Shown here: positions 29,775 to 37,110 of the stretch, in pieces
Layout: each line of letters opens with the position of its first letter
How positions within the stretch are numbered: position 1 is the stretch's first letter
NCBI RefSeq assembly: GCF_000020785.1
Contig: NC_011126.1
Span: 558,001-622,000, forward strand
Length of the DNA stretch: 64,000 bases
Source: Hydrogenobaculum sp. Y04AAS1
Lineage (GTDB): Bacteria; Aquificota; Aquificia; Aquificales; Aquificaceae
Direction of reading: 5' to 3'
The notes under the pieces: generated by a model
Databases searched by the model: none
Seen by the model: the letters and a program-made list of their open reading frames with translations, nothing else
What the model was told of the DNA's origin: nothing
Made by a program: the position numbers and the translations under genes

Positions 29775-30047
29775 GTGGAAATAGTTTTATTTCTAAAAAC
29801 GTTGAGCGCTCTCGGCATGGTCCTATCGCTTATAGCATTTTTATATACAGCTTTTGATTGGAAAAAGATAATTCAAACAACCTACAACCCTAGCGATATA
29901 GTTAGCATATACAAAATAATACCCATTGACAAACATTCTAAGTTTATAATACTAAAAGCTAAAAACAAACTAATCTTAGTATTTGTATCAAAAGATTATG
30001 CTAAACTTATATATGAGATGGATTATGAGGCTAAAGACGTTAGTTAA
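29775..30047 (+). CDS. fliO: Probable flagellar export protein FliO
   Basis: 90-residue protein with one N-terminal membrane helix (LSALGMVLSLIAFLYTAF) and a small cytoplasmic beta-rich domain (SKFIILKAKNKLILVFVSKDYAKLI) like the SH3-like part of FliO. Sequence alone is weak; the position between fliL and fliP is the main support. GTG start, 4 bases after fliL. Its end overlaps fliP. Confidence 0.65.
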   Translation: MEIVLFLKTLSALGMVLSLIAFLYTAFDWKKIIQTTYNPSDIVSIYKIIPIDKHSKFIILKAKNKLILVFVSKDYAKLIYEMDYEAKDVS

Positions 30048-30783
30048 CATAGGCCTATTGCTTTTAATATTTATACATTTAGCAATGGCTCAAAACGAAA
30101 ATCCTATCAATGTCATACCAGGCATACAGGTAAAGTTTAACAACGGTAACTTCACCGAAGCTATAAGGCTTATCCTGATATTAACAGTACTGAGCTTAGC
30201 GCCATCCATAATAATAATGACGACATCTTTTATCAGAATAGTCACCGTTTTATCAGTGTTAAGACAAGCTATTGGTCTCCCAAATGTCCCTCCAAACCAG
30301 GTGATAACGTCTTTAGCGCTTTTCCTTACGTTCTATGTCATGTATCCTGTAATAAATCAAATAAATCAGAACGCTTTACAGCCATATCTTCAGCACAAAA
30401 TTACAGATAAACAATTTATACAAAATACGATAGAACCTATCAAAGATTTTATGGTAAGAAACACAAAAGTAAGCACCGAAAGAACGTTTTTATTAGCTTC
30501 AAACATACCAAACAAAGATAATATAAAAAACATAAACGACCTACCTTTAAGCGTAGTAATTCCAGCTTTTATGGTTAGTGAGCTATCAATAGCCTTTCAA
30601 ATTATATTTTTGCTTTACTTACCGTTTCTAATAATAGATATGGTGGTATCCGCCATACTGCTTGCAATGGGCATCATCATGATACCGCCAACCGTCATAT
30701 CCTTACCATTTAAGATTATGCTTTTTGTACTTGTAAACGGTTGGGAATTAGTTATCTTATCGTTGGTGAGGAGTTACCATTGA
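30025..30783 (+). CDS. fliP: Flagellar export-gate protein FliP
   Basis: Core subunit of the FliPQR export gate. A cleavable signal peptide (MRLKTLVNIGLLLLIFIHLA) is followed by the conserved SFIRIVTVLSVLRQAIGLPN and PPNQVITSLALFLT and three further membrane helices. The start is ATG 30025 (or 30013 in the same frame); the frame is open further upstream but overlaps fliO. It overlaps the fliQ start at its stop. Confidence 0.92.
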   Translation: MRLKTLVNIGLLLLIFIHLAMAQNENPINVIPGIQVKFNNGNFTEAIRLILILTVLSLAPSIIIMTTSFIRIVTVLSVLRQAIGLPNVPPNQVITSLALFLTFYVMYPVINQINQNALQPYLQHKITDKQFIQNTIEPIKDFMVRNTKVSTERTFLLASNIPNKDNIKNINDLPLSVVIPAFMVSELSIAFQIIFLLYLPFLIIDMVVSAILLAMGIIMIPPTVISLPFKIMLFVLVNGWELVILSLVRSYH

Positions 30784-31049
30784 GTCAAGATCAAGTGCTT
30801 ACCATCACCGAAAATATGCTGAAGATGACAGTGCTCTTGTCCGCTCCTATACTTTTAACTACATTCATAGTAGGACTTTTAATCAGTATACTTCAATCTG
30901 CCACTCAAATCCAAGAAATGACGCTTAGCTATATTCCCAAAATACTTGCGGCGTTTTTCGTAATATTCTTGCTTGGTAGTTGGATGATGAAACATATGGT
31001 AGATTATACAAAAGAAATCATCATCAATATACCAAACTATATAAGATAA
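30780..31049 (+). CDS. fliQ: Flagellar export-gate protein FliQ
   Basis: 89-residue gate protein with two membrane helices: N-terminal MSQDQVLTITENMLKMTVLL and the family segment LISILQSATQIQEMTLSYIPK. The start is a TTG at 30780 overlapping the fliP stop, with GGTGAGGAG as ribosome site at a normal distance. An upstream in-frame ATG at 30741 lies within fliP and is unlikely. Confidence 0.93.
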   Translation: MSQDQVLTITENMLKMTVLLSAPILLTTFIVGLLISILQSATQIQEMTLSYIPKILAAFFVIFLLGSWMMKHMVDYTKEIIINIPNYIR

Positions 31050-31050
31050 T

Positions 31051-31827
31051 ATGACGTTAAGTATATCTATACCATATCTCATAACGTTCTTACTTATAAC
31101 GCTTAGAATATCTTCTATAGTATTTTTAGCACCGATTTTTGGGGATTTGCCAAACAGCTTTAAGATATTTTTTGTGATAGCTTTTAGTGTATCGCTTTAT
31201 TATTACAACCCTGTAAAACCAGTCTATACAGATAGTTTTATAATATTAACACTGATGGCTTTGAAAGAATTTAGCTTGGGTTTTATTATAAGCTTGATAC
31301 TAAGATTCTTAGTAGATATTTTCTTTGTTTTTGGAGAATTCGTGTCTAGTTCTCTTGGATTGTCAAACGCCACTATCTTAAATCCGCTTATGGGAAATTC
31401 TACAATTTTGGGCACATACTTTAGTTATTTTTTCATGGGGCTTTTCGCAGCATCATCTGGTTTTGAATATATTTACTTTATTCTATCGGAAAGCCTTAAG
31501 AGTATACCGCTTGGAGTCTTTGATCTATACAACATGAGACCTGAGTTTATATTAAATATCTTTTATAAAAGCTTTTATACTGCTTTTCAATTAGCTCTTC
31601 CTATGATAGCTATAGGTCTTGTGATGAATATAATTCTAGCAGCTATCAATAGGCTTATACCTCAGATAAACGTTTTCATGGTAGGCATGCCACTTCAAAC
31701 ACTTATAGGTATGATATTTTTGTTGCTTATTTTCCCTCTATTAGGGATACTTATGCACCAAATATTTGAACATTATTTTAAATTTATGCTAGAGTTTACA
31801 AGGGGTTATCATGGCCTCGGAAAATAA
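31051..31827 (+). CDS. fliR: Flagellar export-gate protein FliR
   Basis: Membrane protein of 258 residues with six hydrophobic segments, completing the FliPQR gate. Family features include RISSIVFLAPIFGDLP near residues 18-33 and INRLIPQINVFMVGMPLQ in the second half. It begins one base after fliQ; its end overlaps flhB by 17 bases. Confidence 0.92.
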   Translation: MTLSISIPYLITFLLITLRISSIVFLAPIFGDLPNSFKIFFVIAFSVSLYYYNPVKPVYTDSFIILTLMALKEFSLGFIISLILRFLVDIFFVFGEFVSSSLGLSNATILNPLMGNSTILGTYFSYFFMGLFAASSGFEYIYFILSESLKSIPLGVFDLYNMRPEFILNIFYKSFYTAFQLALPMIAIGLVMNIILAAINRLIPQINVFMVGMPLQTLIGMIFLLLIFPLLGILMHQIFEHYFKFMLEFTRGYHGLGK

Positions 31828-32872
31828 AACAGAAAAAGCTACACCATATCGAAGAGGCAAGCTGAAATCGGAAGGTAACGTAGCAAAAAGCCAAGAAGTT
31901 GTATCTGCCCTTTTGATGCTAGTTTCAACAGGGGCATTGTTTTTTATAGGTTATAAAATCTTTATACTATTTTCGGATTTAATATTGGATGGGAGTTTAC
32001 GAATAGATGACCCTTCGTTTACACCTTCTGATGCTACAAAGTTTTTAGGTTTATCTTTCAAAAAGCTGCTATCAGACATTACACCTCTTTTTATATTAGC
32101 TGTTTTGATAGTTGTATTTGGATATATTTTGCAGTTTGGTTTTATATTTACATTTAAACCTTTAGAGCCTAATTTTTCTAAACTGAATCCTGTAGATGGC
32201 CTCAAAAACCTCTTTAGCCTCAACGCACTTTTTGAACTAGTTAAAAACTCTTTAAAAGTTATGCTTCTTTTAATAGCGTCGTTTTTTATATTATATTTTA
32301 GTTTTCATACCCTTGTATTTTCTTCCTACATGTCACCATCTAAGGGCCTTAGTGAAATAGCAAGGTTAATTTTTAAGCTTTTAATATCTATAGGTATAAT
32401 AGGTCTGATGCTTGCGGGGTTGGATTTCGCTTACAAAAAATTTGACTATGAAAAGCGTATAAAAATGTCAAAGCAGGAGGTAAAAGATGAGTTTAAACAG
32501 TTTGAAGGAAATATTGAGGTAAAAGCAAAGATAAGAAGGAGAATGATGGAGCTATCAAGATCTAGAATGATGCAAGAAGTCCCAAAAGCAAGCGTAGTAA
32601 TCACAAACCCAACACACTTTGCAGTGGCTTTAAGATATATACCAAAACAAGATAGAGCACCTATTGTAGTAGCAAAAGGTCAAGATTATATGGCTAAAAA
32701 AATCATAGAAATAGCAGAACTAAACGATGTTCCAGTAGTAAGAAAGCCAGAGTTAGCAAGGGCACTTTACAAAGCGGTAGATATAGAAGAAGAAATACCA
32801 CCGGAGTTCTACAAAGCTGTAGCCGAAATAATAGCTTATATAGTAAAAAGAAAACAGCGTGGTCTCTTATGA
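31811..32872 (+). CDS. flhB: Flagellar export switch protein FlhB
   Basis: Substrate-specificity switch of the export apparatus. N-terminal KTEKATPYRRGKLKSEGNVAKSQE, four membrane helices, and a cytoplasmic domain with the self-cleaving NPTH motif in VVITNPTHFAVALRY. Length 353. It is followed by queE with a stop/start overlap. Confidence 0.94.
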   Translation: MASENKTEKATPYRRGKLKSEGNVAKSQEVVSALLMLVSTGALFFIGYKIFILFSDLILDGSLRIDDPSFTPSDATKFLGLSFKKLLSDITPLFILAVLIVVFGYILQFGFIFTFKPLEPNFSKLNPVDGLKNLFSLNALFELVKNSLKVMLLLIASFFILYFSFHTLVFSSYMSPSKGLSEIARLIFKLLISIGIIGLMLAGLDFAYKKFDYEKRIKMSKQEVKDEFKQFEGNIEVKAKIRRRMMELSRSRMMQEVPKASVVITNPTHFAVALRYIPKQDRAPIVVAKGQDYMAKKIIEIAELNDVPVVRKPELARALYKAVDIEEEIPPEFYKAVAEIIAYIVKRKQRGLL

Positions 32873-33507: not shown

Positions 33508-33968
33508 TGGAAATAAAGATATACACGGACGGAAGTTGTTTGGGAAACCCAGGAGCAGGTGGTTACTGTGCCATATTAAAAGCCATAAAAAATGGCAAAG
33601 TAGTAAAAGAAAAGATAATAAAGGGTACTGAGGCAAACACCACCAACAACCGAATGGAACTAAAAGCTGTAATAGAGGCTTTAAAAGCTTTAAGTAAAAA
33701 AGACCAAAAAATAACCATATATACAGATAGCCAATACGTGGCAAACGGCATAAAGCTATGGCTAAATAATTGGATTAAAAAGGATTTTAAAGGCATAAAA
33801 AACGAAGATTTATGGAAAGAGCTTTACGAGCTTTTAAAAAATCAAAATATAGAAGTAGTGTGGTTAAGAGGGCATCAAAAGAACAAAGGAGATGATCATG
33901 ACACAAACAATTTATGTGATAAAATAGCAAAAGAAGAGGCTATGAAGGTAATAAAAGAGACCTCATGA
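33507..33968 (+). CDS. rnhA: Ribonuclease HI
   Basis: Cleaves the RNA strand of RNA-DNA hybrids. The catalytic acidic residues are visible: D in IYTDGSCLGNPG, E in NNRMELKAVIEAL, D in IYTDSQYV and D in the C-terminal DKIAKEEA region. The basic-protrusion stretch KLWLNNWIKKDFKG is present. Length 153. TAATG overlap with queE. The last 29 bases overlap the convergent gene on the minus strand. Confidence 0.94.
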   Translation: MEIKIYTDGSCLGNPGAGGYCAILKAIKNGKVVKEKIIKGTEANTTNNRMELKAVIEALKALSKKDQKITIYTDSQYVANGIKLWLNNWIKKDFKGIKNEDLWKELYELLKNQNIEVVWLRGHQKNKGDDHDTNNLCDKIAKEEAMKVIKETS

Positions 33969-34287
33969 AAGCTTCAGCGTATTCTACAGGCTCCCCTGGT
34001 TTTTGTATATATATATCAAAATGTTCTTTGTAAAGATAGGGAAAATCTTTTACGTTTTCAAAATAATGTAAAGCTTGATCTTCTTGTTTTAGAGCATAGT
34101 TTATAAGCGATAAAAGTAAATATTTCTCTTTTGAGTCATTGGCTAAAAGTAACCATTTGGAAGCCTCTATGTATTGAGATTTATGTATGTACTTTATAGC
34201 TCTTGCAAGGTTTTTGTCTATATCAAGGTTTTCACATACTTTGACTTTATTCTTATCCAATATTAAAATCCTAAAGCCAATGCGCAT
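33940..34287 (-). CDS. Hypothetical TPR-like protein, 115 residues
   Basis: No family recognised. The middle is helical with a TPR-like cadence (LARAIKYIHKSQYIEASKWLLLA, then YALKQEDQALHYFENV). No signal peptide or membrane helix. It starts 6 bases after the 48-residue microprotein gene and may be the last gene of the microprotein operon. Its 3' end overlaps rnhA by 29 bases. Confidence 0.62.
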   Translation of the reverse strand: MRIGFRILILDKNKVKVCENLDIDKNLARAIKYIHKSQYIEASKWLLLANDSKEKYLLLSLINYALKQEDQALHYFENVKDFPYLYKEHFDIYIQKPGEPVEYAEAFMRSLLLPS

Positions 34288-34293
34288 TAGGTA

Positions 34294-34440
34294 TTAGTCT
34301 TCGTCTTGTTCTTTAAGTGGTGATTCTCCTCTTTCTTGTTCTGTGATATCAACTACATAAGCTATAATGTAAGACATAGTAGCTACTACCACAAGGGCGG
34401 TGATAGCTAAAAAATCCATATACTTCCACATTCCACCCAT
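34294..34440 (-). CDS. 48-residue single-TM microprotein, first in the array from the left
   Basis: One membrane helix (FLAITALVVVATMSYIIAYVV) with a short N-terminus (MGGMWKYMD) and an acidic cytoplasmic- or periplasmic-side tail (TEQERGESPLKEQDED). AAGGAG stands ahead of ATG 34440. The start follows the stop of the next microprotein gene by one base. Function unknown. Confidence 0.68.
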   Translation of the reverse strand: MGGMWKYMDFLAITALVVVATMSYIIAYVVDITEQERGESPLKEQDED

Positions 34441-34441
34441 A

Positions 34442-34603
34442 TTAAGTTTCTCCTTTTTTGTTGCCACCTTTCCATATCGGTAGCACAAAAGATACTACCA
34501 TGATAGCCAGCACTCCAAAAGCTAAAAAAGCAAACCATTCTCTATCTGCTGGCGTAACTGCTTTTGCCATCACTTCATTCATTACCCTTATTGCTTCTTC
34601 CAT
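34442..34603 (-). CDS. 53-residue single-TM microprotein
   Basis: Reads MEEAIRVMNEVMAKAVTPAD at the N-terminus, then one membrane helix (WFAFLAFGVLAIMVVSFVLP) and a Gly/Lys-rich tail. The ATG at 34603 lies inside the preceding microprotein gene (29-base overlap), preceded by AGGAGATAGG as ribosome site. Too short for ordinary gene callers; support comes from the coupled overlaps and conserved layout of the four frames. Confidence 0.66.
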   Translation of the reverse strand: MEEAIRVMNEVMAKAVTPADREWFAFLAFGVLAIMVVSFVLPIWKGGNKKGET

Positions 34604-34736
34604 TTTTCCTATCTCCTCTCATAACATAAAGATAAAGCACAAGACCAAAAGATATTATCATCATTATCATAACAATGGTCATGAAAATAACGTCCCATAT
34701 CCTAAAGACAAACGGCACATACATGTGGTGTCCCAT
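34575..34736 (-). CDS. 53-residue single-TM microprotein with His-rich N-terminus
   Basis: Starts MGHHMYVPFVFRIWD, followed by a Met/Ile-rich membrane helix (VIFMTIVMIMMIISFGLVLY) and a basic tail with GDRKNGRSNKGNE. Its ATG overlaps the stop of the next gene (TAATG). The paired histidines at residues 3-4 could bind metal or heme; this is speculation. Function unknown. Confidence 0.66.
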   Translation of the reverse strand: MGHHMYVPFVFRIWDVIFMTIVMIMMIISFGLVLYLYVMRGDRKNGRSNKGNE

Positions 34737-34849
34737 TATTCTCTACTCTTTTGCCCTTTTTTGCTAGAAAAAATACTATACATAAATATACTAAACATAA
34801 GAAGCAAGACGAAACCAACAACACCTATAACTATAATTCTAAAAATCAT
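34736..34849 (-). CDS. 37-residue single-TM microprotein, first gene of the array
   Basis: Reads MIFRIIVIGVVGFVLLLMFS and ends in a basic tail (SSKKGQKSRE). AGAGGG lies seven bases before the ATG. A TATAAT box 17 bases upstream suggests the array has its own promoter, separate from the TPR lipoprotein gene. Function unknown. Confidence 0.62.
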   Translation of the reverse strand: MIFRIIVIGVVGFVLLLMFSIFMYSIFSSKKGQKSRE

Positions 34850-34866
34850 AAAAGCCCTCTTAACGT

Positions 34867-34872
34867 ATTATA
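34867..34872 (-). promoter_or_regulatory. -10 box upstream of the microprotein array
   Basis: Minus-strand TATAAT, 17 bases before the first microprotein ATG, leaving about 11 bases of leader with an AGAGGG ribosome site. It lies in the 52-base gap after the TPR lipoprotein gene. No clear -35. Confidence 0.45.
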
Positions 34873-34901
34873 TCACTTAATTATGTAAAAATTATAAAAA
34901 C

Positions 34902-36260
34902 TTAAAATCCAAGACTCTTAAATTTTGGCAGCATATTCTGTTGGGCTAAGATACTTTTGTATTGGTTGAAAAGCTCTTTCGCTTTTTCATTGTTTCCAAG
35001 CTTTTGATAACAAGATATATCTTCATAAAGGGCTTTTGCCATCGTATCGTATATACCAAACTTTTCTAAATAAGGTACGGCTTCATCAAGATATGCCACT
35101 GCATTTTTGCATTGATTCATTTTATACAAGTCGTTGCCTACGTTGTATAGGTCCAAATCAAGTCCATATCTGGCACCACCCTTTCTGGTTTTATACCCTC
35201 TTATCATAAGGGCTTGCAAGTGATACTGATAAGCTTTTTGGTAATTGCCTTTTTGATAATATATATCGCCAAGATGCCTTAGTGGTATAGCGGCTCCTTC
35301 CGTATCACCGTTTTTAAGAGCTATCTGAGAAGATTCTACGTAATACTTTTCAGCATCTGGCAAATCACCTTTCTTTTCATAGGCTTGCCCTAAAAGGTTG
35401 TATAAAAGCCCAAGCGTATTTGGCTTATCCTGACCAAGAGCTATGGCTTGTTGTAAATATTCTATAGCCTTGTCGTAATCTCCAGTTTCAAGGTAGAAAT
35501 TGCCAGAATAATAATATGTCGTATATAAAAGGTTGTTGTCGTTTAGAAGTTTTGCTATTTTAAAAGCTCTAGACAAATCTCTTAAAGCGAGTTGTTTTTG
35601 ACCAGACTTGGCCTTGTTTAACACGCTATTAAGAATCTTCTGAGTATATATTTTGATATCACTTATAAAACTAGATACATCAATACCATTTTCTTGAGCT
35701 ATCCTTATATATTTAAATACCTTGTCTATGTCGTAGTATCTAGATGATAAAAAGTCGTTGTAAGCTATATAATAAGCTGCTTCTCCAATAAGATACTTTT
35801 TACCTACTACGTTTGCAAACTCAAAAGCTTTTTTTAACACTTCATTTGCTTTTTGATATCTTTCTGACTTCATTAAGTTTATGCCTTTACTTATAATCTC
35901 TTCAATCTGCTTGGTGGGTTTTGCATAAACCTCAAATCCGTAATCTGTCTCATGTATCATGTATTCGTCTTTTGAAGAGTTGCAATATAGCCATGGACCG
36001 TTCTTTATAAAATCACCACCTTTTGCCTTACAGTATAAAGAAGCCAAATGTTCGTACTCTTTGCGTTTTTGAGGGTTTGTAAGATGAAAGTTAAAATACA
36101 TAGGCTTTTGTATCATATCAAGATAAAAAGGAACAACGCTCTCAGAGTATTCTACAAAGTTTGAATAATCTTGAAAATCTTTCTTTTGATAAACTCTTTC
36201 GCAACTAGACAGGGCCACTACGCCAACCACCATTCCTAAATATATAATTTTTTTGTCCAT
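34902..36260 (-). CDS. TPR-repeat lipoprotein
   Basis: Exported lipoprotein of 452 residues: signal peptide ending in the lipobox LSSC (Cys near residue 20), then an N-terminal region without recognised family, then at least five TPR repeats from about residue 220 (YYSGNFYLETGDYDKAIEYL, LYNLLGQAYEKKGDLPDAEKYY, RHLGDIYYQKGNYQKAYQY and others). TPR repeats scaffold protein complexes. It starts 19 bases after the Fe-S membrane protein, with AAGGAGAGG as ribosome site, so the two probably work together, perhaps in assembly of a respiratory complex. Confidence 0.82.
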   Translation of the reverse strand: MDKKIIYLGMVVGVVALSSCERVYQKKDFQDYSNFVEYSESVVPFYLDMIQKPMYFNFHLTNPQKRKEYEHLASLYCKAKGGDFIKNGPWLYCNSSKDEYMIHETDYGFEVYAKPTKQIEEIISKGINLMKSERYQKANEVLKKAFEFANVVGKKYLIGEAAYYIAYNDFLSSRYYDIDKVFKYIRIAQENGIDVSSFISDIKIYTQKILNSVLNKAKSGQKQLALRDLSRAFKIAKLLNDNNLLYTTYYYSGNFYLETGDYDKAIEYLQQAIALGQDKPNTLGLLYNLLGQAYEKKGDLPDAEKYYVESSQIALKNGDTEGAAIPLRHLGDIYYQKGNYQKAYQYHLQALMIRGYKTRKGGARYGLDLDLYNVGNDLYKMNQCKNAVAYLDEAVPYLEKFGIYDTMAKALYEDISCYQKLGNNEKAKELFNQYKSILAQQNMLPKFKSLGF

Positions 36261-36279: not shown

Positions 36280-37110
36280 TTAAAATAAGTCTTTTACATT
36301 TCCTTCATCATCTACCTTGGATATATGTAGAGCTTGCTTTTCTTCTCCATGGTTTCTAAAATCCGTCATACAAGCGTCTACACACTTTCCGCACATATAG
36401 CAAGCTTTTAATCCGCTTGTGGTATCAAGCTCATCCTTCAATTTTCTTGGGTCTAAAGCTATGGGACAAGCTCTTACGCACTCCAAACATTCTGTACATG
36501 TATTTTTATCATAGGTAATGCGCCATCTCATCTTTTGATTGAAAACTTCCAAATAAAGACCTATAGGACAAAAATATCTACACCACTTTTGCCTTAACCA
36601 TCCTATAGCAAGATAATTAAGAGCAATAAGGCCATATGTAAGAAACGATACCCACCAAAACGCAGGATGGTATGGCTTAAACAAAACAGACAAATCCACT
36701 ATCCAATTTAACAATATTAGGGTTAGTGTAGCGTTTAAAACGAAAACTATGATATTAAACTGCAATTTTTTGCCATGTCTATAAAGCCTATCGTATAAAA
36801 CTTTTACACCTCTTATAAGCCACCCTTCGGTACATATAAAACTACAAAAAAATCTTCCATAAAAATAGTTTATTACAAATGTAACAGTATAAAGAGCAAT
36901 CCACAACGAAAAAGCCCATATGGCTGGTTTTGTCCAATTTGTGGTATAATGCCCCCAAAGATAATAGTTTCCGTTGGCAAAGTCCATCTTTATAAGATGA
37001 AAAACCGGAAATATAACAAGAGTAATTGCAGATATAACGTTGAAGGCAAACCTTACTTTGGTATATTTAGTAGTGTAGGGATACTCCCCTAAAAGTTCTA
37101 AAAGCGCCAT
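36280..37110 (-). CDS. NapH/CcoG-like iron-sulfur membrane protein
   Basis: Four to five membrane helices with two cysteine motifs at the membrane face, FCSFICTEGW and WCRYFCPIG, as in NapH, NosR and CcoG/RdxA. A C-terminal domain carries two 4Fe-4S motifs: CTECLECVRACP (complete) and CYMCGKCVDACM, where Met replaces the usual Pro. At 276 residues it lacks the C-terminal Ig-like domain of CcoG, so it is closer to NapH. The family moves electrons from quinol or delivers electrons for copper reduction. No nap or nos genes are nearby. GGAGGT precedes the ATG. Confidence 0.85.
   Translation of the reverse strand: MALLELLGEYPYTTKYTKVRFAFNVISAITLVIFPVFHLIKMDFANGNYYLWGHYTTNWTKPAIWAFSLWIALYTVTFVINYFYGRFFCSFICTEGWLIRGVKVLYDRLYRHGKKLQFNIIVFVLNATLTLILLNWIVDLSVLFKPYHPAFWWVSFLTYGLIALNYLAIGWLRQKWCRYFCPIGLYLEVFNQKMRWRITYDKNTCTECLECVRACPIALDPRKLKDELDTTSGLKACYMCGKCVDACMTDFRNHGEEKQALHISKVDDEGNVKDLF

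Follow-up and report, generated by a model that had tools for sequence, protein, structure and literature searches.

Are the four short, tightly packed open reading frames on the minus strand of this stretch of the Hydrogenobaculum chromosome protein-coding genes and, if so, what might their products serve? The window, that is, the whole 64,000-nucleotide stretch of DNA that was analysed, covers positions 558001-622000 of a 1,559,514-base single-contig genome of the genus Hydrogenobaculum, family Aquificaceae. An initial annotation of this DNA had described frames of 37, 53, 53 and 48 residues, here named ORF1 to ORF4, with a NapH/CcoG-like Fe-S membrane protein and a TPR lipoprotein upstream and a TPR-like protein downstream; the coordinates, the lengths and the neighbours are all as it claimed (Table 1). 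The couplings between the frames were also found as described: ORF1 and ORF2 meet in a TAATG junction, the overlap of ORF2 with ORF3 is 29 bases long, and a single base separates ORF3 from ORF4. In the most distant genome of the genus the first of these junctions reads TAAATG, without overlap.

Table 1. Features of the array, of its surroundings and of related loci. Positions without a prefix are those of the window; prefixed positions lie outside it.
Feature	Position	Strand	Description
ORF1	34736-34849	minus	37 aa; one helix at about residues 5-23; C-terminal tail basic
ORF2	34575-34736	minus	53 aa; HH-x-YVP-x-VFRIWDVIFM segment conserved, followed by a single helix and a basic tail
ORF3	34442-34603	minus	53 aa; polar N-terminal stretch, one helix, basic tail
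ORF4	34294-34440	minus	48 aa; one helix, strongly acidic C-terminal tail
TATAAT, candidate -10 element of the array	34867-34872	minus	17 nt before the ORF1 start; perfect; kept in 5/5 genomes
TPR-like protein	33940-34287	minus	115 aa; downstream; dN/dS 0.1-0.34 (less constrained); weak TPR_2 match, E 0.11
TPR lipoprotein	34902-36260	minus	452 aa; lipobox LSSC; predicted helical repeat model
NapH/CcoG-like polyferredoxin (Fe-S protein)	36280-37110	minus	276 aa; transmembrane helices; two Cys clusters
Antisense open frame	34458-34880	plus	140 aa; opposite ORF1-3; open in 5/5 genomes; 168 aa in the most distant genome
Flagellar export run and following genes	29985-32872	plus	convergent with the array operon
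cbb3 oxidase operon	G000:C1:762833-766632 (L108)	minus	cytochrome c, CcoN, CcoO, 98-aa and 79-aa genes
thiE-linked microprotein	L072:9087-9191; L070:12751-12849; also L042, L043, L046, L073		33-38 aa; one helix; consensus MDPSVxFPIVIIGMVxLAIxIF...LDKGxDEE; directly upstream of thiE
Microprotein near the cbb3 operon, sister-family genus g19	L127:3009-3104; L122:2981-3076		31 aa; one helix; MEPWIPFIIxLIxSAIT...GALKKE
FISHTVQMKP repeats	L033 (G030), about 1-1300	reverse	repeated in short frames

One membrane helix with a charged tail had been assigned to each frame, an architecture borne out by the tail charges and by the hydrophobicity profile, which contains a single strong hydrophobic segment in each product (19-residue Kyte-Doolittle means of 2.99, 2.84, 2.64 and 2.24 for ORF1-4). 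The charge pattern of the acidic ORF4 tail is opposite to that of the basic tails of ORF1-3. By this profile, the four products share a trait of the small subunits of cbb3-type oxidases, namely that of single-span membrane proteins of about 30-60 residues. Of the ribosome sites that had been proposed, Shine-Dalgarno-like motifs before ORF3 and ORF4 are conserved in five genomes, that of ORF3 with one change in one of them. The claim that the array has its own -10 box stands in part: the TATAAT is perfect and conserved in all five genomes, but no convincing -35 accompanies it and it is absent from the list of a consensus promoter scan. It is treated here as a candidate, and no promoter strength is claimed for it.

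The conservation sample was composed of the window genome and the homologous stretches from four other genomes of the genus, five in total. All four frames are kept in each of them in unchanged order, the identity to the most distant genome over aligned residues being 53, 73, 89 and 78% for ORF1-4, respectively. ORF3 is the most constrained of the four, with 100% identity in the other genomes, and the identity of ORF3 and ORF4 within the genus spans 78-100%. Low dN/dS values were obtained for ORF3 (0 to 0.07) and ORF4 (0 to 0.13), both within about 0 to 0.15, followed by ORF2 (0.07 to 0.28). ORF1 evolves fastest: its values are 0 to 0.16 within a set of four genomes and 0.29 to 0.46 when the fifth and most distant one is compared. 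Third positions account for 50, 56, 86 and 70% of the changes in ORF1-4. When evolution was simulated under neutrality, a single frame stayed open in all four relatives in 0.6% of the runs for ORF1 and in 0.06, 0.03 and 0.04% for ORF2-4, and all four stayed open together in 0 of 20,000 runs. ORF1-4 are protein-coding genes, and the substitutions show purifying selection on the array, which is less strong for ORF1 when the most distant pair is compared. Two checks proposed in the initial annotation thus have an outcome: the Ka/Ks comparison indicates purifying selection, with dN/dS well under 1 (up to 0.46 for ORF1 in the most distant comparison), and the conservation of gene order holds within the genus, in five of five genomes; for ORF2-4, the rest of the order yielded no convincing match.

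An open frame also runs on the strand opposite ORF1-3, and a naive longest-ORF caller picks it over them, a preference that would hide the microproteins. It is scarcely credible that this frame is the real gene, or that ORF1-4 are chance frames. The antisense frame is indeed open in all five genomes, but its third-position fraction is 0.46 and its dN/dS about 0.24-0.57, so that the codon constraint on ORF3 and ORF4 is far stronger; moreover, the simulation never left all four sense frames open, and the Shine-Dalgarno-like motifs and junctions of the array are conserved. We rejected the antisense frame as a gene and read it as a shadow of the sense genes.

The array is part of a block of seven genes, the Fe-S protein, the TPR lipoprotein, ORF1-4 and the 115-residue TPR-like protein, which is kept in all five genomes. 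The region upstream of the block differs in the most distant genome, save for a DUF2203-like gene (named by similarity to the gene in the window). In two of the five genomes ORF4 overlaps the start of the 115-residue gene, and the coupled unit thus reaches that gene. The Fe-S protein, whose cysteine clusters are C205-C208-C211-C215 and C237-C240-C243-C247, with further cysteines at C89/C93 and C177/C181, is among the most constrained members of the block (dN/dS 0.02-0.04). No full-length relative of the TPR lipoprotein was found in the order outside the genus, and its predicted structure matches generic TPR proteins only. Beyond the block, a run of FliP-, FliQ-, FliR- and FlhB-like flagellar export genes is followed by QueE-like and RNase H-like genes (names read from translations). 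In genome G030, the repeats listed in Table 1, some 5 kb upstream of the operon, look like translated repeat units, possibly of a CRISPR array.

None of the family libraries tried recognises the four proteins, in line with the initial annotation, which had recognised none of them. ORF1-4 gave nothing significant in Pfam, NCBIfam, PADLOC or the PDB, none reaching a curated cut-off, and, with E values up to 1 considered, neither Pfam nor NCBIfam linked them to FixQ/CcoQ, FixS/CcoS, FixH/CcoH, DUF4006/CcoX, CydX or the other Pfam oxidase small subunits. Profile searches with ORF2, ORF3 and ORF4 across 112 genomes of the order had no hits beyond the genus. This order-wide negative is compatible with the existence of orthologues of such 37-53-residue proteins: even the Fe-S protein, with about 90% identity inside the genus, drops to about 30% in the sister family, where a 50-residue helix would probably escape detection. 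That family is taken to be the Hydrogenothermaceae from its place in the order and its oxidase pattern. Several weak similarities were rejected. ORF2 as CcmD/CcmD_alt (PF20077) was suggested by one of the five members only (E 0.02, 15.4 bits, cut-off 23.5), the other four giving none; its match to YajC in the PDB (E 0.003) is a single one confined to the helix; and short matches to helices of large proteins in other Aquificota, COX1 included, are chance helix matches. Because sequence membership was looked for and not found, ORF1-4 are not filed in any known family, and as far as sequence comparison goes they appear to belong to none. No literature on this locus was found.

Size and a single helix would in general also fit stress-type or regulatory small membrane proteins, or a set of toxic peptides, acting without a stable complex. 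This is quite improbable: the genes are chromosomal and in single copy, they encode four different proteins in an invariant operon, and the constraint on ORF3 and ORF4 (78-100% identity) is strong. Nor did a defence system emerge, since PADLOC returned no match apart from a generic TPR.

The Fe-S protein shares membrane helices and two four-cysteine clusters with both the CcoG/RdxA/FixG proteins and the NapH/MauN polyferredoxins, but it is shorter than the 435-position CcoG model and falls below the cut-offs of the two families. It scores 64.6 bits as NapH against a cut-off of 213 (62-65 bits over NF007013 and TIGR02163, with curated scores of 213-234 bits) and 19.2 bits as CcoG (TIGR02745) against 316.7, a model with which the Hydrogenothermaceae relatives reach 36-51 bits; by curated cut-offs it is neither. 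Its predicted structure was unusable (mean pLDDT 39.8). A scan of a public genome collection with this protein returned only the genus or near relatives, within this genome a search at E 1e-12 detected no second NapH/CcoG-type protein, and no nap genes that would link it to NapA or NapG were recognised by eye among the neighbours listed at the locus. The microproteins, the NapH-like protein and the TPR lipoprotein might form a membrane electron-transfer complex of their own, for instance a genus-specific, quinol-oxidising NapH-type module with four small helices. Such a complex would agree with the best score of the Fe-S protein, as NapH/MauN, with the restriction of the TPR lipoprotein to the genus and with the adjacency of the genes, which stay together in five of five genomes, including the most distant one, whose upstream region is different. 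We nevertheless judge it unlikely, as the cluster holds no catalytic partner, cytochrome or haem motif and, in the Hydrogenothermaceae, the Fe-S protein stands without such neighbours.

The distribution of the Fe-S protein points to a known enzyme. It has been published that the genus has its type C (cbb3) oxidase in common with Sulfurihydrogenibium rather than with its own family (PMC3665934; PMC3879981), and the cbb3 oxidase of the lineage has been described as minimal (PMC3879981). CcoO (PF02433) was found in 39 Hydrogenothermaceae and in all five genomes of the genus; the rest of the Aquificaceae gave none. Besides this genus, 38 Hydrogenothermaceae genomes encode proteins closely related to the Fe-S protein (best E 1e-30 to 1e-41), and the other Aquificaceae gave generic matches only, at about 1e-13 to 1e-15. 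Among the 112 genomes, 42 contain both CcoO and the Fe-S protein, two CcoO only, both of them incomplete (78% and 82%), one the Fe-S protein only and 67 neither. The protein thus has the CcoG trait of occurring with a cbb3 oxidase, in 42 of the 44 CcoO-positive and one of the 68 CcoO-negative genomes, a pattern that comprises phylogenetically few events. The Fisher p value of 3e-27 ignores kinship and overstates the case, since the genomes are related and the pattern amounts to perhaps three independent events (two clades and one genome without both). A Hydrogenothermaceae genome that is 99% complete, G104, is without COX1, CcoO and the Fe-S protein.

The cbb3 operon is compact and lies about 170 kb from the array. 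It opens with a separate gene for the cytochrome c (CcoP-like) part, and the gene order is the same in the sister family. The 98-residue protein has two helices, and its relatives match FixS weakly, below the cut-off, whereas the 79-residue one-helix protein appears by eye to resemble the membrane helix of CcoP. Between the upstream regions of the Fe-S gene and of the oxidase operon, inspection by eye found no common motif other than Shine-Dalgarno-like similarity.

One-helix genes were also seen in the Hydrogenothermaceae. A conserved microprotein without Pfam or NCBIfam match above cut-off is encoded beside thiE in the genera g12 and g20 (Table 1), the order in g12 being microprotein, thiE and NapH/CcoG-like gene, which is at most a hint that the Fe-S protein is accompanied by one-helix proteins. 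Orthology of this microprotein with ORF1 or ORF4 was rejected: a pairwise p of 0.009 arose among 24 comparisons, but profile comparison gave probabilities of 8% and 2%. Another conserved one-helix microprotein was noticed near the cbb3 operon in genus g19.

Small genes of this kind are known from other cbb3 systems. The Campylobacter jejuni array of CcoX (Cj1486, DUF4006), CcoY (Cj1485), CcoZ and CcoH is, like that described here, a row of small genes, two of them for tiny one-helix proteins; the single-helix CcoX and CcoY (33 residues) are needed for normal cbb3 activity, and a CcoG-type Fe-S protein contributes as well (PMC8267372). In C. jejuni the row directly follows ccoNOQP and CcoG is encoded elsewhere, whereas here it is the Fe-S gene that the row accompanies, at a distance from the oxidase genes; ORF1-4 have no sequence match to DUF4006 or FixH. 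CcoM, which stabilises the Pseudomonas cbb3 enzyme, resembles ORF1-4 in its single helix and in how little sequence identity it has with other small subunits of oxidases; CcoG aids assembly as a cupric reductase (PMC8267372). CcoM is, however, one protein and not four, and no relation is detectable among solved structures.

With one-helix genes placed after a CcoG/NapH-like gene, the layout fits the idea that unrelated or unrecognisably diverged parts do this work here, and we therefore propose, at a probability of roughly 40%, that the products of the array assist the cbb3-type cytochrome c oxidase, either as accessory subunits or as factors in its assembly. The initial annotation had favoured a membrane complex not described before, with the four proteins as its small subunits or assembly factors. 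Of these two ideas, the role as small subunits or assembly factors fits best; the undescribed complex is unsupported, as the Fe-S neighbour co-occurs with a known cbb3 oxidase, and because of this co-occurrence the simplest partner would be the known enzyme. We infer in this way the physical partner of the microproteins, their role in assembly and their orientation in the membrane. ORF1-4 would be single-span inner-membrane proteins serving the cbb3 oxidase of the cell, each helix packing against CcoN, CcoO or the detached CcoP-like helix; in this way they would stabilise the finished oxidase or an assembly intermediate, as is the case for CcoM, CcoX, CcoY and CcoH in other bacteria. The upstream Fe-S protein may serve the same oxidase, for example by providing electrons or reduced copper during maturation, like CcoG, and the TPR lipoprotein and the 115-residue TPR-like protein could act as scaffolds on the two faces of the membrane.

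Several observations stand against a cbb3 role: the distance from the oxidase operon, the lack of sequence relation to oxidase small subunits, a NapH score above that of CcoG, and the distribution of the microproteins, of which ORF1-4 are present in the five CcoO-positive genomes of the genus and ORF2-4 were undetected in the CcoO-positive Hydrogenothermaceae, a weak test for such short proteins. In addition, a CcoS-like protein is already present in the oxidase operon, so the CcoS role is probably filled. That the four new families, the Fe-S protein and the genus-specific TPR lipoprotein make up a previously undescribed module, assembling or feeding the minimal cbb3 oxidase in this acid-hot-spring bacterium, we regard as doubtful.

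The conserved TATAAT directly upstream of ORF1 suggests separate expression, and the microproteins might then belong, as small subunits, to a different respiratory complex (for instance cytochrome bd, a hydrogenase or a quinone-linked sulfur enzyme), under their own promoter and unlinked to the Fe-S gene. A bd oxidase is present in the genus (PMC3879981), and bd oxidases carry small proteins of the CydX or CioY type, CioY, of 34 residues, being part of the CioAB oxidase and, like CydX and the products described here, a tiny one-helix protein (PMC11955535). The genes for CydX and CioY adjoin those of their oxidases, unlike the array, and ORF1-4 match neither CydX nor any other small-subunit family. 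As the close linkage to the Fe-S gene is conserved, and a bd oxidase was also reported in the other two Aquificae compared, where ORF2-4 were undetected, we consider this origin improbable too.

Few kinds of gene are annotated as poorly as those for tiny one-helix proteins, several of which have nevertheless turned out to be important for terminal oxidases. The four orphan one-helix proteins of this locus form a conserved set beside a maturation-type Fe-S protein and, even without a function, they provide four conserved targets for small-protein proteomics. If the array serves the cbb3 oxidase, the minimal enzyme of this lineage would be less minimal than thought, and the assembly of the high-affinity oxidase of Aquificota without a CcoG that passes the threshold would become testable.
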